Positions 10,985 to 58,900 of a stretch of 64,000 nt of DNA are shown piece by piece (positions within the stretch are counted from its first letter, which is position 1; every line of letters begins with the position of its first letter). The stretch is from Demequina lutea. Lineage in GTDB: Bacteria; Actinomycetota; Actinomycetes; Actinomycetales; Demequinaceae. The stretch spans positions 2,232,001 to 2,296,000 of the forward strand of contig NZ_JACBZO010000001.1 of the NCBI RefSeq assembly GCF_013409005.1, in the 5' to 3' direction. Below the pieces are notes generated by a model. That model had not been told where the DNA came from. It made no database searches and saw nothing but the letters and a program-made list of their open reading frames with translations. A program made the position numbers and the translations under genes.

Positions 10985-13714
10985 TTACTTCGTGCCCTTC
11001 TTGGCGGCCTTGGCGGGTGCCGGGGCATCCCCGACGGCCGCGTCGGCCTTGCGGGCCTTCACGTCGTCCCAAGAGATGCCGTAGTACGCGGCCTCCATCA
11101 TGATCTTCATGTCTTCGATCATGGGCATGCGCGGGTTGGCGGGTGCGCACTGGTCCTCGTAGGCCTGCATGGCGAGCGTGTCGAGGCTCGCAATGAATTC
11201 GACCTCATCGACGCCCGCCGCCTGGAACGAGGGCTCGATGCCCAGCTTGGCCCGCAGTTCCTCACAGGCGACGGCGTAGGCCTCCACCGCGATCTCCGGC
11301 GTCTCGTGAGCGAGGCCAAGCATCTTCGCGATGTCCTGGAAGCGCTCGGGCGCGACGTACGACTCCTGCTTGGGCCACGAGGTCGGCTTGGTGGGAATCT
11401 TGCCGTTGTAGCGGATGACGTGCGGCAGGTAGATCGCGTTGGTGCGACCGTGTGCCACGTGGTACATCGAGCCGGTGACGTGGCTCATGGCGTGCACGAG
11501 GCCGAGGAACGCGTTACCGAACGCCATGCCGGCGATCGTCGCGGCGTTGTGCATCTTCTCGCGGGCCTTGACGGCGGTGCCACCCACGACGACCGACTCT
11601 TCGATGTTCTCGAACACCAAGCGGATGGCCTGGAGCGCAAGACCGTCGGTGAAGTCGTTCGCATACACAGAGACGTAGGCCTCGGTGGCGTGCGTCAGGG
11701 CGTCCATGCCGGAGTCGGCCGCGACCCGCGCGGGCAGGTTTGCGGTGAGCACCGGGTCAATGATCGCGACGGTGGGCGTGAGCGCGTAGTCGGCGAGCGG
11801 GTACTTGCGGCCCGTCTCGGTGTCCGTGATGACCGCGAACGGCGTCACCTCGGCGCCCGTGCCCGACGTGGTCGGGATGCAGACCAGCTTGGCAAGTTCG
11901 CCCAGCTTGGGGAACTGGAACGCGCGCTTGCGGACGTCGAAGAACTTCTCCTTGAGGTCCGAGAACACGATGTCGGGGTGCTCGTACATGAGCCACATGA
12001 CCTTCGCGGCGTCCATCGGCGATCCACCACCGACGGCGATGATCGTGTCGGGCTTGAACGCCCGCATGATCTCCGCACCGGCCGTGACCGTCTTGATGGA
12101 GGGCTCGGGCTCGACGTTGTCGATGATCTGCAGCGAGACGAGGTTCGACCGGCGGCGCAGCACGTCGATGATCTTGTCGACGACGCCGATGCGGGTCATC
12201 GTCGCGTCGGTGACGATCGTGACGCGCTCGACGGCGTTCATGTCCTTCAAGTACTGGATCGCGTTGGGCTCGAAGTAGGTCTTGGAGGGAACCTTGAACC
12301 ACTGCATGTTGTTGTTCCTCCGGCCGATGCGCTTCACGTTGATGAGGTTCAAAGCGGTGACGTTGTTCGACACCGAGTTCTTGCCATACGAACCGCAGCC
12401 GAGCGTGAGCGAGGGCAGGAACGCGTTGTAGATGTCGCCGATGCCGCCGTGGCTCGAGGGAGAGTTCACGATGATGCGGATGGCCTTGCAGCGCTTGCCG
12501 AACTCCTTGATGAGGTCCTCATCGGTCGCGTGGATCGCGGCTGAGTGACCCAGTCCTGAGAACTCCACCATCTGCTCGGCATAGGTGAGGCCCTGCTCGG
12601 TGTCGTTGGCCTTGAGGACGGCCAGGACCGGGCACAGCTTCTCGCGCGTCAGGGGCTCGTTCGGGCCGACTTCGCTGACCTCGGCCAGGATGATCGAGGT
12701 CTCTTCGGGAACAGTGAAGCCCGCCTGCTCGGCGATCCACTGGGGGCTCTTGCCCACCACGTTCGGGTTGAGCTTGGCTCCTGCGCAGTTGGTGCCGCCC
12801 GAGGTGGCACCGAAGATGAACTCCTCGAGCTTGGCCTTCTCGTCCTTGGTGACCTTGTAGGCGTGCAGGCGGTCGAACAGCCCCATCGCCTCGGCGTAGA
12901 TCTCCTTGTCGAGGATGACGGCCTGCTCCGAGGCGCACACCATGCCGTTGTCGAAGGCCTTCGAGATCACGAGGTCGTTGATCGCGCGCTTGAGGTTGGC
13001 CGACTTATGCACGTACGCCGGCACGTTTCCGGCGCCGACGCCGAGGGCGGGCTTTCCGCAGCTGTATGCGGCCTTCACCATGGCGTTGCCACCGGTGGCG
13101 AGGATGAGCGAGACGTCGGGGTGGTTCATGAGCGCGCCGGTGGCCTCAAGCGAGGGAATCTCGACCCACTGGACACAGTGCTCGGGAGCACCCGCGGCGA
13201 CGGCCGCGTCACGGACGATCTTGGCGGCGGCGATCGAGCACTCGCGAGCGCTCGGGTGGAAGCCGAAGATGATCGGGTTGCGCGTCTTGATGGCGATGAG
13301 CGACTTGAAGATCGCGGTCGACGTGGGGTTGGTCACCGGGGTGATACCGGCGATGACGCCCACGGGCTCGGCGATCTCGGTGATTCCCGTGATCGGGTCC
13401 TCGCTGATGATGCCCACGGTCTTCATGGGTGCCATCGAGTGGGTCACATGCTCGCACGCGAACAGGTTCTTCACGGCCTTGTCTTCAAACACTCCGCGGC
13501 CGGTTTCGTTGACGGCCTGCAGGGCGAGAACTCCGTGCTGGTTCAAAGCGGCGACGGACGCCTTCTTGACGTAGTAGTTCACGTCTTCTTGGGTCCTCGA
13601 CGCGTACTCGGCGAGGGCCTTGATGGCATTCGCGACGAGCACGTCGATTCCTGCGGCGACCGACGTGGCGTCGGTGGGGGCAAGAGCGCCGGATTGGGGG
13701 GCGGTGGTGGTCAT
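10985..13714 (-). CDS. adhE: Bifunctional acetaldehyde-CoA / alcohol dehydrogenase
   Basis: 909 residues. N-terminal half is a CoA-acylating aldehyde dehydrogenase with catalytic Cys260 in NGMVCASEQ; C-terminal half is an iron-dependent alcohol dehydrogenase with GGGSPMDAAK nucleotide motif and the metal-binding ALTHATEAYVS and GLVHAMSH segments. The enzyme reduces acetyl-CoA to ethanol with two NADH and forms spirosome filaments in other bacteria, so the organism probably ferments. AAGGAGG lies nine bases before the ATG. The last ~20 residues (APAPAKAAKKGTK end) are an Ala/Lys tail beyond the usual end of the family. Confidence 0.97.
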   Translation of the reverse strand: MTTTAPQSGALAPTDATSVAAGIDVLVANAIKALAEYASRTQEDVNYYVKKASVAALNQHGVLALQAVNETGRGVFEDKAVKNLFACEHVTHSMAPMKTVGIISEDPITGITEIAEPVGVIAGITPVTNPTSTAIFKSLIAIKTRNPIIFGFHPSARECSIAAAKIVRDAAVAAGAPEHCVQWVEIPSLEATGALMNHPDVSLILATGGNAMVKAAYSCGKPALGVGAGNVPAYVHKSANLKRAINDLVISKAFDNGMVCASEQAVILDKEIYAEAMGLFDRLHAYKVTKDEKAKLEEFIFGATSGGTNCAGAKLNPNVVGKSPQWIAEQAGFTVPEETSIILAEVSEVGPNEPLTREKLCPVLAVLKANDTEQGLTYAEQMVEFSGLGHSAAIHATDEDLIKEFGKRCKAIRIIVNSPSSHGGIGDIYNAFLPSLTLGCGSYGKNSVSNNVTALNLINVKRIGRRNNNMQWFKVPSKTYFEPNAIQYLKDMNAVERVTIVTDATMTRIGVVDKIIDVLRRRSNLVSLQIIDNVEPEPSIKTVTAGAEIMRAFKPDTIIAVGGGSPMDAAKVMWLMYEHPDIVFSDLKEKFFDVRKRAFQFPKLGELAKLVCIPTTSGTGAEVTPFAVITDTETGRKYPLADYALTPTVAIIDPVLTANLPARVAADSGMDALTHATEAYVSVYANDFTDGLALQAIRLVFENIEESVVVGGTAVKAREKMHNAATIAGMAFGNAFLGLVHAMSHVTGSMYHVAHGRTNAIYLPHVIRYNGKIPTKPTSWPKQESYVAPERFQDIAKMLGLAHETPEIAVEAYAVACEELRAKLGIEPSFQAAGVDEVEFIASLDTLAMQAYEDQCAPANPRMPMIEDMKIMMEAAYYGISWDDVKARKADAAVGDAPAPAKAAKKGTK

Positions 13715-27469: not shown

Positions 27470-27602
27470 GGATCCCCCAATGAGCTTGCGAGAGCCGCCC
27501 TTCACCCTCTCTTGGCAACCTTAGTTGCGCTCGGCGCGCTCGGCCCCTTTTCGCGTCTCTGGATGCGTTCGACCCCTTTGGAATAGGACGCGCGACTATG
27601 TG

Positions 27603-27648
27603 GTTGACATGGCAACAAAGCCCTCCTACATTTGGTGGACTTGTCAAC
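27603..27648 (+). promoter_or_regulatory. DoxX gene promoter with flanking inverted repeat
   Basis: TTGACA at 27604-27609 and TACATT at 27627-27632 are 17 bp apart, a textbook sigma-70 promoter and the clearest in the window. GTTGACA (27603-27609) and TGTCAAC (27642-27648) form inverted arms around the -10 and start site, a plausible repressor operator. Confidence 0.75.
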
Positions 27649-27664
27649 TTCTCAAAGGATCTCC

Positions 27665-28084
27665 ATGAACGCCGTATTCCTGATTGCCCGCATCCTCTTC
27701 GCCCTGATCTTCCTGCTCAGTGCCATGGGGCACATGACAAACGCCGCCGCGATGGCCGGGTACGCAAAGTTCAAGGGCGCACCCGGTGGCAAGGCAGGCG
27801 TCATCGCATCGGGCGTCACCATGGGCCTCGGAGCGATCATGGTGCTGTTGGGCATCTACGGCGATCTCGGTGCGCTACTGGTCTTCGCGACCCTCATCCC
27901 TGTCAGCTTCTTCATGCACGCGTACTGGAAGGTGAGCGACGCTCAGGCCAAGCAGATGGACCGGACCAACTTCAACAAGAACATCGGCCTCATGGGCGGC
28001 GCGCTCGCACTGTTCCTCCTGTTCGCCGTCACGAACGCGAACCTGGGCCTCACCATCACGGGACCACTGTTCCACCTGAGCTAG
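27665..28084 (+). CDS. DoxX family membrane protein
   Basis: 139 residues from ATG 27665 with AAAGGA six bases upstream. Four transmembrane helices; the N-terminal FLIARILFALIFLLSAMGH and the AYWKVSD loop are typical of DoxX/DoxD-like proteins. Family members are linked to thiol and oxidative stress and quinone-related redox in some actinobacteria, but the role here is unknown. Single-gene unit with its own promoter and terminator. Confidence 0.85.
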   Translation: MNAVFLIARILFALIFLLSAMGHMTNAAAMAGYAKFKGAPGGKAGVIASGVTMGLGAIMVLLGIYGDLGALLVFATLIPVSFFMHAYWKVSDAQAKQMDRTNFNKNIGLMGGALALFLLFAVTNANLGLTITGPLFHLS

Positions 28085-36150: not shown

Positions 36151-36813
36151 ATGGGCATGCTGGAGGCCGGTGGCGAGAGTCGCCCGATGATTTCGCTCGG
36201 GTTCGACGAGGAGTTGCACCCCAGGGGAACGCATATTTGCTTCATCTTCAACGACGAGGAGGAGCGTCGGTGGGTGATGTCGAAGTACGTCCAGAGCGGC
36301 TTGGATGCGAACGAGCAGGTCGGCTATTTCGTCGACACGATGTCGCCCGACGGCCTGAAACAGTGGATGCGCGAACACGGTGTGACCCTGCCCGATGAGC
36401 TCGATGGCCGACAATACAGCGTCGTCGCCGCAGAGGAGGCGTACTGCCCTGACGGCACCTTCAAGGTCGATCGCATGATCGAAACCGTGCGGGAGTTGCA
36501 CAATCGCAGCCTCCGGGAAGGCTACGCCGGCGCCCGTGCTTCCGGAGAGATGACCTGGGTCCAACGGGGCCATCCCGGGTCGGAGAATCTAGCGGAGTAT
36601 GAGTGTCGCATCAACGTGCTCGTGCGCACTGTGCCGATCACTGTGGTGTGCCAGTATGACGCGCAACGTTTCGACGGGGCGACACTCTACGACATCTTGA
36701 GCGTGCACCCGATGATGATCGTGCACGGGCAAGTGGTCAGGAATCCCTACTACGTCGAAGCGGAAGTTTTCCTGGGAAAATTGGCGACACGCCAGCGGCC
36801 CCTAGATGTCTGA
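36151..36813 (+). CDS. MEDS domain (DcmR-like sensory) protein
   Basis: 220 residues from ATG 36151, chosen because GAGGAGG lies five bases upstream; a GTG at 36115 is also open. GTHICFIFNDEEERRWVMSK then YVQSGLDANEQVGYFVD is the MEDS domain opening, followed by the DGTFKVDRMIETVRELHNR and YECRINVLVRT parts. MEDS domains are thought to bind small molecules such as hydrocarbon derivatives and usually sit beside signalling outputs. The gene overlaps the c-di-GMP gene by 8 bp, so the two act together. Confidence 0.85.
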   Translation: MGMLEAGGESRPMISLGFDEELHPRGTHICFIFNDEEERRWVMSKYVQSGLDANEQVGYFVDTMSPDGLKQWMREHGVTLPDELDGRQYSVVAAEEAYCPDGTFKVDRMIETVRELHNRSLREGYAGARASGEMTWVQRGHPGSENLAEYECRINVLVRTVPITVVCQYDAQRFDGATLYDILSVHPMMIVHGQVVRNPYYVEAEVFLGKLATRQRPLDV

Positions 36814-39661
36814 TACTCGGTTTGCTGCAGAGGTTCTCGGCAAGTTGCTCGTCGCGGTTCAGACGCTCGACGCCCTACCCAGTGTGAAGGGGATGGCCGA
36901 GTTCCTACAGTCTTCCCTGAGAGAAGTCCCGGGCGTCACCAACACGTTCATGTGTCTGAACGGGGAGTTCCCCTCTGCCGACCAGGCAACCATCGCAAAA
37001 CTGGATCTGCACTGTCCGAAGGCAGCAGGCCCGTCGGCTTCGACCCCGCTGTGTGTGCCGGAGGATCGGCCGGACATCCAACTAGTCGCCATGCGTACAC
37101 CACGTCAAGCATTCGGCTGCCTGCAACTGGTCATAGACGACGAGGCGAAGTTTGAGGCGTACCAACCGTTTCTCGTCAACATCGGCCACATGGTCGCCAC
37201 CATCTTGGAGAAACGACAGAATGACCGCTCCCTAGCCACGGCGACCGCACAGCTGAACAGGCAGGCGTTTGAGTCGGCCCGCTCGATGATTGAATCGAGT
37301 CTGGACTCGTTGGTGGCGATCAGTCCGGAGGGGATGATCACCGATGCCAACGAGGCCACTGTCAAGGTCACCGGCATTCCTAGGGACGAACTGATCGGGA
37401 CCGCGTTCTCGGAGTGTTTCACCGAGCCGGTCAAGGCCAACGCGATTTACCAGTTGGTTTTTGAGCGGGGGATGGCGGTGGACTACCCGTTGACGATGCG
37501 TCACCGGGACGGGACGTTGACCGAGGTGTTGTACAACGCGTCGGTGTATCGCGACGTCGGCGGCAAAGTGCTGGGTGTCTTCGCCGCAGCCCGTGACGTA
37601 ACCGAAGCGAGGCAGGCGTTTCAGTCGGCCCGCTCGATGATTGAATCGAGTCTGGACTCGTTGGTGGCGATCAGTCCGGAGGGGATGATCACCGATGCCA
37701 ACGAGGCCACTGTCAAGGTCACCGGCATTCCTAGGGTCGAACTGATCGGGACCGCGTTCTCGGAGTGTTTCACCGAGCCGGTCAAGGCCAACGCGATTTA
37801 CCAGTTGGTTTTTGAGCAGGGCATGGCGGTGGACTACCCGTTGACGATGCGTCACCGGGACGGGACGTTGACCGAGGTGTTGTACAACGCGTCGGTGTAT
37901 CGCGACGCCGGCGGCAAAGTGCTGGGTGTCTTCGCCGCAGCCCGTGACGTAACCGAGCAGAATCGTGCGGCCGAGACCGCCCGGAGTCTGGTTGCGGCGG
38001 AGGATCTGGTCCGTACGGTGATGGGTTCTGCTTCGATTGGTATCGTCTTGGCTGGCCTGGACGGTTCTATCCGTGTTGTCAACAGCGCATTGTGCGACCT
38101 CCTTGGGTATGACGAGGCGTACTTCCTGGCACACCGGCTGCAGGACACCGTCCACCCCGACGACCTCGAGGTGGCACTTCTGGACCGGACCCGGGTTATC
38201 GCCGGATCGATCAACAAGAGCGCCACAACGGTACGCCTGGTGCGGGCCGACGGCGCCACCGTTTGGGTGCGTCGAGTGACGGTGCTACTCAGGGACGGAG
38301 ACGGCGAGGCGAACATGCTCATGATGCAGGTGGAAGACATCACTGCGGAGCACGAGGCTCAGGAGGCTTTGGCTTACCAGGCCTTCCACGACTCGCTGAC
38401 CGGGTTACACAACCGGGCCTGGATCCTGGACATCCTGGCGGTTGATCTGCGCGCCGCCAAGCGGCGGGGGCATTCGGTGGGGGCACTGTTCGTGGACCTG
38501 GACAACTTCAAGGTCGTCAACGACTCGCTGGGGCACGCGGCCGGCGACGAGGTGTTGGCCGCGGTGGCGGAGCGGATCGTGGCCGCCCTGCGCCCAGGGG
38601 ACCGTGTTGGACGTTTTGGGGGCGACGAGTTCGTCATCGTGGTCCAGGGCCTCCAGGGCCTCCAGGGCCTCCAGGGCCTCCAGGATGTCCTGGAGGTGGA
38701 ACGTTGCGCCGAGCGGGTGTCTGCCTCGATCGGCGTCGATCTGCAGGTGCGAGGCCACCGGATCGTGCCGACCGCGTCCATCGGTATCGCCACCTCGACC
38801 TCGACGTCGACACCCGAGAGCCTGCTACGCGACGCCGACTCCGCACTGTCCCAAGCCAAGACCACGGGGCGGGCGCGCTGGCACTTCTTCGACGACACGA
38901 TGCACGCCCAGGCTCTGGCCCGTCTCAACATAGAGGACCAGTTGCGTGAGGCGATCACCGCCAGTCAGTTCGTGGTGTTTTACCAACCCATCGTGGCCCT
39001 GGCCGACGCCCACGTGGTCGGACACGAGGCACTTGTACGTTGGGCGCACCCCAACCGCGGGCTGCTCAGCCCCGGTGAGTTCCTCGAGATCGCCGAGGAC
39101 ACCGGGCTGATCACCGCCATCGGCGCCCAAGTCCTGGACCAGGTCTGCGCGATGCTAGCCGAACATCCGGACCTACCCGGTCCGATCAGCGTCAACGTTT
39201 CGGCCGTCCAGCTGGCTGCGCCCGACTGGCTCACAACCGTGCGGGACACTCTGGCGACCCACCGGGTCGACCCCGCTCGGATCGTGATCGAGGTCACCGA
39301 GACCGCCGTCCTGAGCCTGGTGGACTCCGCCCGAACCGCACTGACATCCTTACGCGAACTCGGTATCGGCATCCACCTCGACGACTTCGGCACCGGATAC
39401 TCCTCCATCTCGGTGCTACGAGACCTGCCGGTGACCGGAGTCAAACTCGACCTGCGCTTCGTCCACGACCTCACCGCCGACGACAGCCAAGCCAACGCCC
39501 TCGCTGAGGGCGTGAACGGTCTGGTCAAGGGCCTGCATCTGACCGGAATCGCCGAAGGCATCGAAACCCAGATGCAAGCCAACATCCTGCGCGACCAGGG
39601 ATGGGAACACGGACAGGGCTACTACTTCGGCAAACCAGCCACCACACCCCTCCCCCCCTGA
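36806..39661 (+). CDS. PAS-PAS-PAS-GGDEF-EAL c-di-GMP sensor enzyme
   Basis: 951 residues. N-terminal GAF-like region (1-150), two near-identical PAS modules (about 152-269 and 269-386), a third PAS (about 395-510), GGDEF domain with intact GGDEF at 605-609 and an I-site RPGD five residues before it, then EAL domain with EAL at 741-743 and DDFGTGYSS. All main catalytic motifs for both synthesis and breakdown of cyclic di-GMP remain, so it may be bifunctional. No transmembrane segment; cytoplasmic. Coupled to the MEDS gene. Four GLQ tripeptides at 615-626 interrupt the strand after GGDEF. Confidence 0.93.
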   Translation: MSDTRFAAEVLGKLLVAVQTLDALPSVKGMAEFLQSSLREVPGVTNTFMCLNGEFPSADQATIAKLDLHCPKAAGPSASTPLCVPEDRPDIQLVAMRTPRQAFGCLQLVIDDEAKFEAYQPFLVNIGHMVATILEKRQNDRSLATATAQLNRQAFESARSMIESSLDSLVAISPEGMITDANEATVKVTGIPRDELIGTAFSECFTEPVKANAIYQLVFERGMAVDYPLTMRHRDGTLTEVLYNASVYRDVGGKVLGVFAAARDVTEARQAFQSARSMIESSLDSLVAISPEGMITDANEATVKVTGIPRVELIGTAFSECFTEPVKANAIYQLVFEQGMAVDYPLTMRHRDGTLTEVLYNASVYRDAGGKVLGVFAAARDVTEQNRAAETARSLVAAEDLVRTVMGSASIGIVLAGLDGSIRVVNSALCDLLGYDEAYFLAHRLQDTVHPDDLEVALLDRTRVIAGSINKSATTVRLVRADGATVWVRRVTVLLRDGDGEANMLMMQVEDITAEHEAQEALAYQAFHDSLTGLHNRAWILDILAVDLRAAKRRGHSVGALFVDLDNFKVVNDSLGHAAGDEVLAAVAERIVAALRPGDRVGRFGGDEFVIVVQGLQGLQGLQGLQDVLEVERCAERVSASIGVDLQVRGHRIVPTASIGIATSTSTSTPESLLRDADSALSQAKTTGRARWHFFDDTMHAQALARLNIEDQLREAITASQFVVFYQPIVALADAHVVGHEALVRWAHPNRGLLSPGEFLEIAEDTGLITAIGAQVLDQVCAMLAEHPDLPGPISVNVSAVQLAAPDWLTTVRDTLATHRVDPARIVIEVTETAVLSLVDSARTALTSLRELGIGIHLDDFGTGYSSISVLRDLPVTGVKLDLRFVHDLTADDSQANALAEGVNGLVKGLHLTGIAEGIETQMQANILRDQGWEHGQGYYFGKPATTPLPP
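37261..37962 (+). repeat. Recent 351-bp tandem duplication of a PAS module
   Basis: Unit 1 37261-37611 and unit 2 37612-37962, exactly 351 bp (117 codons) apart. I count 5 mismatches over about 340 bp (giving E/Q, D/V, R/Q, one silent, V/A). Such near-identity implies a very young duplication or ongoing gene conversion; copy number may vary between strains. Confidence 0.97.
38648..38683 (+). repeat. 9-bp minisatellite inside the GGDEF domain
   Basis: GGCCTCCAG repeated four times in frame, encoding GLQ x4, just after the active-site strand. Length can change by slippage without breaking the frame, which could tune cyclase activity. Confidence 0.95.
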
Positions 39662-50001: not shown

Positions 50002-52383
<2,382 letters not shown>

Positions 52384-52887
52384 TCAGCCCGTGGTGGTCT
52401 GGGTAGGAGTGGTGGCCTGGGTAGGAGTGGTGGGAGTGGCGGGAGCGGCGGCCGATGCGCACGCGGCGCACATCCCCCAGTACGTGACTTCCGCCGTGTG
52501 GACCACGAATCCGTGATCATCCGACGGCGTCAGACACGGCGCGTGCCCCACCGCGCAGTCGACATCGACCACCGCGCCGCAGTGCGTGCAGACGAGGTGG
52601 TGGTGGTTGTCGGCCACCCGCAACTCATAGAGTCCGGGTTTCCCGGAAGGCTCGAAGCGGCGCACAATCCCGGCGGCGACAAAGTCGCTCAGGGCGTTGT
52701 AGACCGACTGGAGGCTTGCCTTGGGGAGCTCCGCAGTGACGCTTCGCAACACTTCGTCGGCGCTCGCGTGCGGGTGATCGCGGAGAGACCTGAGCACCGC
52801 ACCCCGCGGCGTGGTGAACTTGAGGCCCGCGCCACGAATGACGTCGGCGATGCCCGCGTCGAGCGGCGCCTGCGTCCATGTGGTCAT
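52384..52887 (-). CDS. furA: Fur family peroxide-type regulator
   Basis: 167 residues. Winged helix (GLKFTTPRGAVLRSLRDHPH) and metal-binding part (HHHLVCTHCGAVVDVDC, WGMCAACAS with CxxC pairs). As FurA/CatR, it should repress katG and itself until oxidised by peroxide. ATG comes six bases after CATAAT (52899-52894), a leaderless start as known for mycobacterial furA. The C-terminal PTTPTQATTPTQTTTG tail is a low-complexity extension. Confidence 0.92.
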   Translation of the reverse strand: MTTWTQAPLDAGIADVIRGAGLKFTTPRGAVLRSLRDHPHASADEVLRSVTAELPKASLQSVYNALSDFVAAGIVRRFEPSGKPGLYELRVADNHHHLVCTHCGAVVDVDCAVGHAPCLTPSDDHGFVVHTAEVTYWGMCAACASAAAPATPTTPTQATTPTQTTTG

Positions 52888-55036: not shown

Positions 55037-55659
55037 ACCAGACGCCGAGCGCCGGTCTCTCTCACCCCTTGGTCGCGGCGTACCTCAGCGACCTTGAACA
55101 GGCGTTGTCGTCCGTCGACCAGCAGGAACGCATCGACACGATCGCCTCCGTGCGCGAGCACCTGACGGATGCGCTCGGGGTTGATGGGCTCGGCGCCGAA
55201 GCCGAGCCGACAACCGAACGGGTAAAGGCCGTGCTTCACGAACTGGGTTCCGTGGAGCAGATCGCCGCTTCCGCCACTCCCTCATCCGCCGCCCCCGCTT
55301 CCATTCCACCCGCGTCAACACCGCCCTCATCAGCATCGCCCACCGGACAGAAGCAAGAGGGAGGATGGGCGGCACCCGCACTCTTGGCCGCATCGATCGT
55401 GTCGCTCGTGATCCCGCTGTTCGGGGCGGTGCTGGCGATCGGCTGCCTGGTTGCCGCCATCGTGCTTCTTCGAAGCGGAGCGCCACGCCGCGGCTTCCTG
55501 AAAGCGACCATGGCGGTTTCAATCGCCACCTTGGTTGTCAACGTCTTACTGGTGGCAGGTTCCCTCGCTCTATTCAACGTCAGAAGCGACGTCACCAGCG
55601 TCCCCGGCGAGCCGGTCCCGGCTTCCGCAAGCTACGCACCCGCCCCCAGCCAGGGCTGA
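55033..55659 (+). CDS. HAAS-type membrane protein, PadR partner
   Basis: 208 residues. The N-terminal HAAS/DUF1700-like helical domain reads HPLVAAYLSDLEQALSSVDQ then QERIDTIASVREHLTDALG. A Pro/Ala/Ser linker leads to two hydrophobic segments (LIPLFGAVLAIGCLVAAIV, IATLVVNVLLVAGSLAL). HAAS proteins are thought to pass membrane stress signals to PadR. Cotranslated with padR. Confidence 0.8.
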   Translation: MNQTPSAGLSHPLVAAYLSDLEQALSSVDQQERIDTIASVREHLTDALGVDGLGAEAEPTTERVKAVLHELGSVEQIAASATPSSAAPASIPPASTPPSSASPTGQKQEGGWAAPALLAASIVSLVIPLFGAVLAIGCLVAAIVLLRSGAPRRGFLKATMAVSIATLVVNVLLVAGSLALFNVRSDVTSVPGEPVPASASYAPAPSQG

Positions 55660-55706
55660 CGCTGGACTGGCTCGTCGACCCTCATTCGTCTGCTTAAAAT
55701 CGCCGG

Positions 55707-56522
55707 GTGAAGAACAGTCCCCAGTCATTGCCCACCCGCGTCCCCACCCTCAACGCGGCCCTGCGAGTCCCCGCAGTCACCGCCGTCTTCTGGATCGTTA
55801 AGGTACTCACCACCGGCGTGGGCGAGACCACGTCCGACTTCCTCGTGAAGACCTACAACCCCGTGCTGATGGTGCTGCTCGCCGGCGTCCTCTTTGCAGG
55901 ATGCTTCTTCATCCAGATTCGCGCGCGCCGCTATGTGCCGTGGAGGTACTGGCTGTTCGTGACCGCCGTCGCAGTCTTCGGCACCATGGTCGCCGACGTC
56001 ACGCACATCGTGCTGGCCGTGCCCTATGCGGTGTCCACGCCCACATTCGCGGTCGTTCTCGTTGCCGTGTTCTGGCTCTGGCGTCGCACCGAGGGCGACC
56101 TGTCGGTTCACTCGATCTTCACCCAGCGACGCGAACTGTTCTACTGGGCCGCCGTGCTCGCGACCTTCGCGCTCGGCACCGCCCTGGGCGATCTCACCGC
56201 CGTCACGTTCCACCTTGGCTACTTCGGCTCGGGAGTCATGTTCGCCGTGCTGTTCGCCGCACCCGGCATCGGCTATCGCATCGGACTGCCCGCGACCCTG
56301 AGCTTCTGGGCCGCCTACGTGGTCACCCGTCCGCTCGGGGCTTCGTTCGCCGACTGGGTCGCCGTCGAACACTCCCGCGGCGGGCTCGCGTGGGGCACCC
56401 GGCTGGTCAGCGTCATCGGGCTGCTCGTCATCGCGGCTTGCGTCGCCGGGCTGCAGGTGGCCTGGTCTCGCGCGAGGAGCGGCGAGCGGGCCGATGCCGT
56501 GGTCGGCGCCCTGCCTGCCTAG
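55707..56522 (+). CDS. COG4705/DUF347 membrane protein
   Basis: 271 residues, about eight transmembrane helices. A motif recurs that marks this family: KVLTTGVGETTSDFL, TALGDLTA, GASFADWVA, i.e. TxxGxxxxD near helix starts. Often annotated as membrane-anchored protein of unknown function. GTG six bases after TAAAAT (55695-55700), leaderless. The heliorhodopsin gene follows by 77 bp on the same strand. Confidence 0.85.
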   Translation: MKNSPQSLPTRVPTLNAALRVPAVTAVFWIVKVLTTGVGETTSDFLVKTYNPVLMVLLAGVLFAGCFFIQIRARRYVPWRYWLFVTAVAVFGTMVADVTHIVLAVPYAVSTPTFAVVLVAVFWLWRRTEGDLSVHSIFTQRRELFYWAAVLATFALGTALGDLTAVTFHLGYFGSGVMFAVLFAAPGIGYRIGLPATLSFWAAYVVTRPLGASFADWVAVEHSRGGLAWGTRLVSVIGLLVIAACVAGLQVAWSRARSGERADAVVGALPA

Positions 56523-56599
56523 TCGGGAATCCAGCGCAACTCGTCGTGGTTGTGTACGGTCAAGAGACACGTTCAACGACGAACGACTGAGGAGACCTC

Positions 56600-57358
56600 A
56601 TGGATGCCGCCCTGGCCAAGCTCCGACCATTCAACCTGGTAGCAGCCCTGCTTCACCTCGCGTCGATGGCGGCAATCCTGCTTCTCGCGAACGACGCCTC
56701 GCTCCCCGTGCGCGCCACGTACCTCAACGGCGCTCCCGGTTCCGACGCGTTCGGCGCGCCCGTCACGCTGATCAACATCAACATCGGCTACGCGGTGGCC
56801 GCCTTCCTGGCGCTGTCCGCGTTTTTCCATTTGCTGGTGATCTCGCCTGCGGCGTTCCCCCGTTACACGGCGGGACTGCGCCAGCACCACAACACGTTCA
56901 GGTGGGTCGAGTACTCGCTCTCGTCGTCCATCATGATCTTCCTGATACTGCAGCTCAACGGCGTATCGGACTACGCCGCGCTCGCCGGACTGTTCGCGGT
57001 CAACGCCAGCATGATCCTGTTTGGATGGCTCCAGGAGCGCTACACCACCCCGGGCGACGGGGACCTGCTGCCCTTCATCTTCGGCAGCATGGTCGGCATC
57101 GTCCCGTGGCTCATCATCGTGATCAACCTCATCGGGCCTGGCAGCACCAGCAATGCCACACCGCCAGGCTTCGTCTACGGCATCATCATGTCGCTGTTCG
57201 TGTTCTTCAACGGCTTCGCCATCGTGCAATGGAAGCAGTACCGGGCCAAGGGCAAGTGGGCCGACTACCTGCGCGGGGAGCGCGCCTACATCGTGCTGAG
57301 CCTCGTCGCGAAGACGCTGCTCGCATGGCAGGTGTTCGCGGGGGCGCTCGCCTCATAG
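56600..57358 (+). CDS. Heliorhodopsin
   Basis: 252 residues, seven transmembrane helices. The TM7 motif SLVAKTLLAWQ carries retinal-binding Lys238 (codon at 57311-57313). TM3 reads FRWVEYSLSSSIMIF with Glu104 as the Schiff-base counterion; His19 in AALLHLASM and His77 in SAFFHLLVI match the His pair of known heliorhodopsins. The family has inverted topology (N-terminus inside) and acts as a slow light sensor rather than a pump. ATG with GAGGAG six bases upstream. No carotenoid cleavage or retinal genes are in the window, so retinal must be made elsewhere or scavenged. Confidence 0.95.
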   Translation: MDAALAKLRPFNLVAALLHLASMAAILLLANDASLPVRATYLNGAPGSDAFGAPVTLININIGYAVAAFLALSAFFHLLVISPAAFPRYTAGLRQHHNTFRWVEYSLSSSIMIFLILQLNGVSDYAALAGLFAVNASMILFGWLQERYTTPGDGDLLPFIFGSMVGIVPWLIIVINLIGPGSTSNATPPGFVYGIIMSLFVFFNGFAIVQWKQYRAKGKWADYLRGERAYIVLSLVAKTLLAWQVFAGALAS

Positions 57359-57406
57359 TCGCCCTCGCGACGGGCGGCGGAAGGTCGCCAACGCTACGCT
57401 CCAAGC

Positions 57407-58042
57407 ATGACGGCTCAGCCCACACATGTTCCGGGCACACCCACGCTGGGTGTTCCCGCGCAACGGGGCCTCGGCATCGCGATCCTGGTGGTGACTGGCC
57501 TGATCACGGCGCAGGCAATCGTCCTCGGCGTCGCGGTGGCCACGGGGAATCCATACGTCCACACAGCGGGGACGAACTTCCCCTTTGACTCGTCGGCAGG
57601 GGTCGGCCTGCTTGGGGTTCTCGCCTGGCTACTCGTGGCGCAGTGGATGGCCACCGCCGCTCGCGCCGCCGCGGCAGACGGCTACTACGTGAAGCATCGG
57701 CCGTGGGTGGCATGGTGGGGCTGGGTGATCCCCATCTGGAACCTCTGGGCGCCCTATAGGTACATGAAGGACGCGACCCAGGGCTTCCCCCTACGCTACG
57801 TCGGGCTCTGGTGGGCCGCCTGGCTCTTTGGCACCCTCACTCTCGCATATTCCGGCGAGTCCACCACCATCGATGGGGTGGTGACCCAGACTCAGACGTT
57901 AGCGTCGGCGCCGTTCAACGCGCTAGCCCTGACGGTGTCGTGGCTCCTCTTTGCGCGCATCGTCTGGACCGTAAGCCAGGGAGCCCAGGGCGCGTCCGTG
58001 AGTGGGGCGCCCACCACGACACCCCTTCCCTGGCTGCCCTAG
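57407..58042 (+). CDS. DUF4328 membrane protein
   Basis: 211 residues with about four helices. ADGYYVKHRPWVAWWGWVIP then IWNLWAPYRYMKD is the DUF4328 core. Function unknown. ATG six bases after TACGCT (57395-57400), leaderless, so it is transcribed apart from the heliorhodopsin gene. Stop overlaps the convergent DsbA-like gene end by 4 bp. Confidence 0.85.
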   Translation: MTAQPTHVPGTPTLGVPAQRGLGIAILVVTGLITAQAIVLGVAVATGNPYVHTAGTNFPFDSSAGVGLLGVLAWLLVAQWMATAARAAAADGYYVKHRPWVAWWGWVIPIWNLWAPYRYMKDATQGFPLRYVGLWWAAWLFGTLTLAYSGESTTIDGVVTQTQTLASAPFNALALTVSWLLFARIVWTVSQGAQGASVSGAPTTTPLPWLP

Positions 58043-58695
58043 GACGTCGCAGCGGCCTCGGCCGAGCGCGCCTCTGCTGATCGACGCAGTGCGTCCGCAA
58101 ACGTGCGCACAGGCTGCGCGCCCGACACGGCAAACTTCCGGTCGAACACGAAGAATGGCACGCCGGTGGCGCCCAGCGCGGCCGCCTCGTCGATGTCCGC
58201 CTGCACCGCGTCGTCGTACTTGTCGGAAGCGAGCACGGCGCGCACCTCGTCGGCGTCGAGCCCCACCTCGACGGCCATGGCGACCAGCGTGTCGGCATCG
58301 TCCACAATGGCACCCTCGGTGAACTGGCCGCGCATCAGGCGGTCCTTCATCTCGTTACCAAGCCCGTGGTCCTGCGCCAGATGCAACACCCGATGGGCGT
58401 CACGCGTATTCGCCTGCATGTACTTGTCGAAGCGGTACTCGAGGCCCTCGGCGGCACCCAGGTCGATGAGCCGCTGGTTCATCTCGGTGATGCGCTCGGG
58501 GGTGGTGTTGAACTTCTTCGCGAGCGCCTCGCCGTGCGGCGTGTGCTGGCCGTGGGGAATCGTGGGGTCAAGCTGGAAGCTGTGCCACACCACGGCGACA
58601 TCCTCGCCCGATGCCTCAATTGCGGCTTCCAGGCGGTGCTTGCCCAGGTAACACCAGCGACACGCCACATCGGACCAGACATCAACGGTGATCAT
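58039..58695 (-). CDS. DsbA-family oxidoreductase (FrnE type)
   Basis: 218 residues from ATG 58695 with GGAGG five bases upstream. No signal peptide, so cytoplasmic. Thioredoxin-fold start ITVDVWSDVACRWCYLGKHR with a CRWC active site, an inserted helical domain and the cis-Pro loop GATGVPFFVFDRKFAVSGAQ. Similar to FrnE/2-hydroxychromene isomerase-type DSBA proteins linked to oxidative stress. A terminator-like stem-loop lies about 60 bp upstream. Confidence 0.9.
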   Translation of the reverse strand: MITVDVWSDVACRWCYLGKHRLEAAIEASGEDVAVVWHSFQLDPTIPHGQHTPHGEALAKKFNTTPERITEMNQRLIDLGAAEGLEYRFDKYMQANTRDAHRVLHLAQDHGLGNEMKDRLMRGQFTEGAIVDDADTLVAMAVEVGLDADEVRAVLASDKYDDAVQADIDEAAALGATGVPFFVFDRKFAVSGAQPVRTFADALRRSAEARSAEAAATS

Positions 58696-58787: not shown

Positions 58788-58900
58788 GCACGCATCAACC
58801 GCAGTGGTGCCAGGCGTATTCCCGCGATCCGCGCATCGGGTGCGAATCGTGCGTGAATCCCTCGCGCCACACCGCCTCTACCCGGTATGTCCTCGGCGAA

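Follow-up and report, generated by a model that had tools for sequence, protein, structure and literature searches.

The purpose of heliorhodopsins is largely open. Published abstracts report functions for a few of them, with glutamine synthetase, photolyase and ABC-transporter proteins as partners and a viral member acting as a proton transporter. A role in the mitigation of oxidative stress has been proposed on the ground that genes for glutaredoxin, peroxidase, thioredoxin and catalase occur nearby, catalase being a neighbour at least three times in Actinobacteria; in the accessible parts of that paper gene context is the main basis of the idea (Bulzu et al., 2021; PMC8612252). We analysed a stretch of 64,000 nucleotides of Demequina lutea (contig NZ_JACBZO010000001.1, positions 2,232,001 to 2,296,000; hereafter the window), which encodes a heliorhodopsin preceded by the element GGAAT-N18-GTT. 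This is the motif given for SigR of Streptomyces coelicolor (PMC2375139), written as GGAAT-N18-19-GTT in a further source (PMC9205884), and in chromatin immunoprecipitation sequencing of SigH the GGAA and GTT boxes lie 19 bp apart (PMC4803200; all three as far as the sources were accessible). From this element and its distribution, we consider it probable (about 0.74) that the heliorhodopsin of the Demequinaceae belongs to the SigR/SigH thiol-oxidative-stress regulon and is made under redox stress.

The genome of the window (G000, 3.1 Mb) was compared with those of its family, 47 Demequinaceae genomes in all. Heliorhodopsin genes were found in 11 of these, nine of them among the 44 genomes of the window's own genus. 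An alignment of the regions upstream of seven Demequina heliorhodopsin genes contained two invariant blocks of three bases, GGA and GTT, besides isolated invariant columns and the area around the start. The sequence GGAAY-N18-GTT occurs exactly before 8 of the 11 genes, 38–50 bp ahead of the start codon, and a ninth (G026) has GGAGT-N18-GTT, with one substitution; the gene of D. aestuarii NBRC 106260 is among those with the exact sequence. A prior-free search for dyads in ten upstream regions ranked GGAA-N19-GTT at the top, tied with GGGA-N20-GTT, which is the same element; both were present in eight regions, and the best dyad in each of 100 Markov-resampled control sets reached five at most. 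Across seven genomes the core letters of the element are 90% identical, compared with 40% for the letters of the spacer, the pattern that a maintained site should show. The sites of the window and of two further genomes, G044 and G045, match the full extended S. coelicolor form, GGGAAT(G/C)-16-(C/G)GTTG.

Other genes rarely carry the element. Among the remaining genes of the 11 heliorhodopsin stretches, delimited by our own codon-composition gene caller without annotation, it was found in 5 of 219 when a window of up to 200 bp upstream or 30 bp inside the gene was allowed. These five were two frnE genes and the genes of a DoxX-like protein, a glucose/sorbosone dehydrogenase and an aldo/keto reductase. 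With 14 further Demequinaceae stretches added the count was 10 of 442, seven of them frnE, a share inflated by the fact that 13 of the 14 stretches had been fetched around frnE. Of 17 frnE loci, 16 carry the element close to the start of the gene (12 of 12 in one set and 4 of the other 5), and 13 of the 17 come from genomes without a heliorhodopsin. The stretches of G033 and G034 have just two sites apiece, that of heliorhodopsin and that of frnE. Genome-wide, the element occurs 97 times in the window's genome compared with 55 times for the reversed pattern. Sites there precede msrB and the genes of a PrxQ/BCP thiol peroxidase, superoxide dismutase, a PIG3-type quinone oxidoreductase, an NmrA-like protein, a DUF427 protein and a GGDEF protein; annotation covered the first 30 sites by position and 20 chosen stretches, not a random sample, so the redox genes are examples and not a rate.

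Two of these genes deserve mention in their own right. The glucose/sorbosone dehydrogenase gene lies about 6 kb from the heliorhodopsin of G044 (locus L013, 16651-17929) and has its own GGAAT-N18-GTT; an enzyme of the same type is described on heliorhodopsin transcripts of freshwater Actinobacteria in the accessible part of Bulzu et al. (PMC8612252). The GGDEF protein (G000:C1:808717-810101, L208) is a MASE7-GGDEF diguanylate cyclase with GGAAT-N18-GTT upstream, which suggests a link between thiol stress and cyclic di-GMP.

The sigma factor that would read the element is encoded in the same genomes. The window's genome contains sigR (TIGR02947, 301 bits), with the element 9 bp before its predicted start, and rsrA (TIGR03988, 70.9 bits, cut-off 62.5); RsrA is a known sensor of disulfide stress (PMC4960319, seen in part). 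An RsrA match was obtained in 46 of the 47 Demequinaceae genomes, in 44 of them above the cut-off; the match of G044, a heliorhodopsin carrier, falls just below it. All 30 rsrA loci returned also have sigR, and in 28 the element stands just before sigR. The Demequinaceae set resembles the SigR-RsrA regulon of S. coelicolor and the SigH regulon of mycobacteria and corynebacteria, sharing the consensus and having sites at sigR, msrB, a thiol peroxidase and a member of the DsbA fold. In the accessible parts of the respective papers, Rv2466c and msrB are SigH-dependent (PMC4803200), as is NCgl2478, a FrnE relative of Corynebacterium glutamicum (PMC8280269). The FrnE-like protein of the window shares the DsbA fold of the FrnE/DsbA-like mycoredoxins (FrnE of 5cp1, NCgl2478, Rv2466c), and its nearest solved relatives are FrnE (5cp1; E 1.4e-52) and SCO1869; its active site reads CRWC rather than CPWC or CPFC. 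We found no rhodopsin named as a member of a SigR or SigH regulon in the portion of the open-access literature covered.

The heliorhodopsins of the family are of two kinds. A tree of 74 sequences was built, which comprised 26 of 77 loci from a wider sample (every third) and all but 10 of 47 loci from the same order and class, for which the protein was not extracted. The wider sample derives from 80 further heliorhodopsin loci with at most 10 kb of flank each, many on short contigs, after removal of three duplicate Demequina loci; the order- and class-level loci extend only about 1.5 kb to either side, so distant neighbours would escape. Eight Demequina heliorhodopsins, that of the window included, group next to a clade whose sequences are labelled mostly as Acidimicrobiia, whereas G032, G044 and G045 have theirs in a distant branch; well-supported branches force at least two changes of label. 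The element is exact in six of the eight members of the first lineage, to which G026 adds its site with one change, and in two of the three members of the second. The simplest account is that heliorhodopsin was recruited after its arrival in the family, at least twice. If instead one gene had replaced another downstream of a promoter already in place, the outcome could not be told apart from this.

The protein itself is canonical by every profile and residue test made. It matches PF18761 (Pfam Heliorhodopsin) over its full length with 309 bits (cut-off 26.7), NF038020 (NCBIfam heliorhodopsin HeR) with 319 bits (cut-off 100) and the solved heliorhodopsin 48C12 at an E value of about 1e-95. His19, His77, Glu104 and Lys238, placed as the original prediction had them, are invariant in an alignment of ten Demequinaceae sequences, from which G045 and a fragment of G036 were left out. 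We take Lys238 to be the Schiff-base lysine, Glu104 the counterion, and His19 and His77 two histidines of the cytoplasmic cluster, by analogy with 48C12. Compared with 48C12 and the PF18761/NF038020 family, the protein has the same length and the same lysine, glutamate and histidine residues and is unremarkable; the novelty lies in the promoter. The draft genome G036 has one complete heliorhodopsin gene and a C-terminal fragment at a contig end (contigs C155 and C102; loci L021 and L023), perhaps two copies; the fragment (L023), a twelfth heliorhodopsin, was excluded from all counts.

Table 1. Features of the window discussed in the text, with positions counted from its first nucleotide.
Feature	Position	Strand	Evidence or remark
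Heliorhodopsin, 252 aa, no cysteine	56600..57358	+	Profile, structure and residue matches
SigR/SigH-type element GGAAT-N18-GTT of heliorhodopsin	56526..56551	+	GTT end 48 bp before ATG
DUF347 (COG4705-like) membrane protein	55707..56522	+	148 bits, four matched stretches; adjoins heliorhodopsin in G000 only
DUF4328 membrane protein	57407..58042	+	40 bits, cut-off 27.2; adjoins heliorhodopsin in G000 only
FrnE-like DsbA-fold oxidoreductase, CRWC motif	58039..58695 (58749 at widest)	-	PF01323, 166 bits; convergent with heliorhodopsin
SigR/SigH-type element GGAAT-N18-GTT of FrnE	58797..58822	-	About 100 bp before the FrnE start codon
Fur-family regulator upstream of katG	52384..52887	-	Profile matches; 3.7 kb from heliorhodopsin
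KatG catalase-peroxidase	50002..52344	-	Profile matches; 4.3 kb from heliorhodopsin
SigR/SigH-type site before a 150-aa protein with a sub-threshold DoxX match (27632-28084, +)	27580..27605	+	

Profile matches confirmed the arrangement initially described for the window, with heliorhodopsin between a DUF347/COG4705 protein and a DUF4328 protein and near frnE, furA and katG (Table 1). The three central genes lie on the same strand, with 77 bp between DUF347 and heliorhodopsin and 48 bp between the heliorhodopsin stop codon and DUF4328. They need not form one operon, since a promoter-like element belonging to heliorhodopsin itself begins 3 bp downstream of the DUF347 stop codon; DUF4328 could be reached by read-through from heliorhodopsin. 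A consensus scan of 55600-58200 returned no sigma-70 promoter.

What is conserved at the heliorhodopsin genes of the Demequinaceae is the promoter element, not the neighbours. DUF347 is present in 7 of the 47 genomes and co-occurs with heliorhodopsin in that of the window only, one of 11 carriers. DUF4328 is more widespread (26 of 47 genomes, 18 above the family cut-off) and again adjoins heliorhodopsin in the window alone; in the other carriers that have it, it lies on a different contig or more than 100 kb away. KatG (E <= 1e-50) was found in two genomes, those of the window and G034, which both carry heliorhodopsin, at distances of 4.3 and 13.4 kb; two genomes are too few to argue from. Single-sequence searches of the further loci with DUF347, DUF4328, KatG and Fur matched the window alone, and so did hidden Markov models (HMMs) of DUF347 (13 sequences) and DUF4328 (4 sequences), the 47 order- and class-level loci included. 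On this family distribution and these wider searches DUF347, DUF4328, Fur and KatG were rejected as conserved partners; the flanking membrane proteins, suggested in the original prediction as signal partners of the opsin, do not show the conservation by which it proposed to check them.

The frnE gene is a more frequent neighbour, near heliorhodopsin in 4 of the 11 carriers versus 1 of the 47 order- and class-level loci. The two genes converge; they abut in G033 and G034 and are separated by one gene in G026 and by DUF4328 in the window. A DsbA HMM matched these four Demequina genomes, strongly a locus from another family of the order (L220, genome G255) and weakly locus L167. At L220 (418-2235) frnE and heliorhodopsin stand on the same strand about 0.2 kb apart; its 14-kb stretch contains no exact SigR site, and a site with one mismatch occurs at the frnE start only. 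These five cases of neighbouring genes do not prove a bond.

Several further genes were recorded. A GGDEF gene directly follows heliorhodopsin in G032 (L015, 9317-11996), where this heliorhodopsin of the second lineage is flanked on the other side by a thymidine kinase gene; the longest frame of the GGDEF protein overlaps the heliorhodopsin end, and the pair is a possible light-to-cyclic di-GMP operon without a SigR element. GGDEF genes were rejected as general partners; none was seen near heliorhodopsin in the window. At the loci of G002 and G015 (L016, 1720-5676; L020, 279-4368), three tandem genes for proteins of about 415 residues, which belong to the BLAST cluster of the L015 GGDEF protein, stand near heliorhodopsin, the nearest at a distance of 3-5 kb. 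Several Demequina heliorhodopsins also have genes of phosphoglucose isomerase and ABC transporters in their vicinity, which seems to reflect shared gene order. Elsewhere the window encodes a large PAS-GGDEF-EAL protein, likely a cyclic di-GMP signalling enzyme (36806-39661), and a fused aldehyde dehydrogenase/iron alcohol dehydrogenase, AdhE-like by domain order (10985-13714).

Some observations weigh against assigning heliorhodopsin to the SigR regulon. The element is absent from the whole 19.7-kb stretch of G032, and the 53 bp of upstream sequence available for G036 contain no GTT. Many of the sites in the window's genome fall within predicted genes and look like chance, and others precede genes without a redox label, among them those of a LacI-type regulator, a transporter of the major facilitator superfamily and an integrase. 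Genomes of one family are, moreover, non-independent samples. Outside the family the element was present at none of the 74 testable loci of the wider sample of 77 (control: 3 of 820 genes) and at 2 of the 43 testable order- and class-level loci. The element of L254 probably lies inside a coding region; at L226 (G077, another family of the order) GGAAC-N18-GTT ends 29 bp ahead of a possible start codon, and this is the only plausible case beyond the Demequinaceae. The element is thus rare elsewhere, and no general rule for heliorhodopsins follows from it. Finally, PF15461, the Blh-type oxygenase family, had no match in any of the 47 genomes, but the control genomes were also without a match, and other carotenoid oxygenases were not searched.

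Three other explanations have to be weighed. Extracytoplasmic function (ECF) sigma factors often share GGAA-type -35 boxes, and a genuine element might be read by another factor of this class, for example an envelope- or light-responsive one, which would place heliorhodopsin outside the thiol-stress response. The -10 side would agree with this, as it reads GGTT or TGTT before heliorhodopsin genes but CGTT in most cases before sigR. GGTT and CGTT, however, both fit the extended S. coelicolor consensus and TGTT fits that of C. glutamicum (PMC3489674, as far as accessible). In these genomes, moreover, the same element stands before sigR, msrB, the PrxQ/BCP and superoxide dismutase genes and frnE, which makes another ECF factor unlikely.

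The element might also be left over or due to chance, if heliorhodopsin landed beside frnE and took over regulatory DNA that has no function there; the vicinity of frnE in some carriers and the fact that frnE keeps its site even in genomes without heliorhodopsin would fit such an origin. Against it, five genomes (G001, G002, G015, G044 and G045) have the heliorhodopsin site with no frnE found nearby, two of them (G044 and G045) lacking any frnE match, and where both genes are close each has a site of its own, that of the G026 heliorhodopsin with its substitution. As the spacer has also diverged while the core was kept, and two lineages carry the element, we regard a relic as very unlikely. A light sensor signalling through the flanking DUF347 and DUF4328 proteins to furA-katG could draw on the common strand and short gaps in the window and on the fact that katG was found solely in carriers, within 14 kb of heliorhodopsin in both. 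Such a pathway is highly improbable given that each flanking gene adjoins heliorhodopsin in one of 11 carriers, that both HMMs match the window alone, and that heliorhodopsin has a promoter-like element of its own behind the DUF347 stop.

Regulation by SigR is therefore the reading that we prefer, and we infer from the shared element that SigR drives heliorhodopsin and that stress induces it. Oxidants or electrophiles would oxidise RsrA, the zinc anti-sigma factor, and set SigR free. RNA polymerase with SigR would then start at GGAAT-N18-GTT before heliorhodopsin, frnE, msrB and the genes of thiol peroxidase and superoxide dismutase. Heliorhodopsin would in this way enter the membrane under redox stress and might then report, or act on, light in that state. 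Heliorhodopsins of two separate origins may each have been recruited to the SigR regulon, so that the protein would serve as a coincidence device, light being read only under redox stress; we offer this as a tentative and rather doubtful idea. Since the search for a Blh-type oxygenase gave no match in the family, nor in the control genomes, the chromophore might be supplied externally or arise when the same oxidants cleave carotenoid, in which case retinal could itself be part of the stress signal.

A connection with oxidative stress had already been suspected for the window from its gene neighbours. The sharing of a SigR/SigH-type promoter supports the connection and reverses its direction, with stress acting on heliorhodopsin by a mechanism different from the one envisaged; the arrangement was seen correctly, the three genes do not stay together as a unit in the relatives, and the suspected tie to oxidative stress is borne out by the promoter, which the earlier reading could not take into account. 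The same difference separates our analysis from the accessible part of Bulzu et al. (2021), which argues from fusions, neighbours and transcripts that heliorhodopsin acts on stress defence, whereas the promoter points from stress to heliorhodopsin. A word search of the main text of that paper returned neither 'sigma' nor 'promoter'. The ten neighbour groups of Cho et al. (2024; PMC11109279), as far as that paper was accessible, are without DUF347, DUF4328 and FrnE. No earlier link between heliorhodopsin and a sigma factor or SigR was found in the part of the open-access literature examined, with most subscription papers outside the search.

What this adds for one bacterial family is a regulatory input to heliorhodopsin that is specific, conserved and open to testing. 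With a conserved promoter of a stress sigma factor that is already known, the test can be made directly and at little cost in cultured bacteria. For the Demequinaceae themselves, the promoter tells under which condition heliorhodopsin would be present, and unstressed cells may hardly express the protein.

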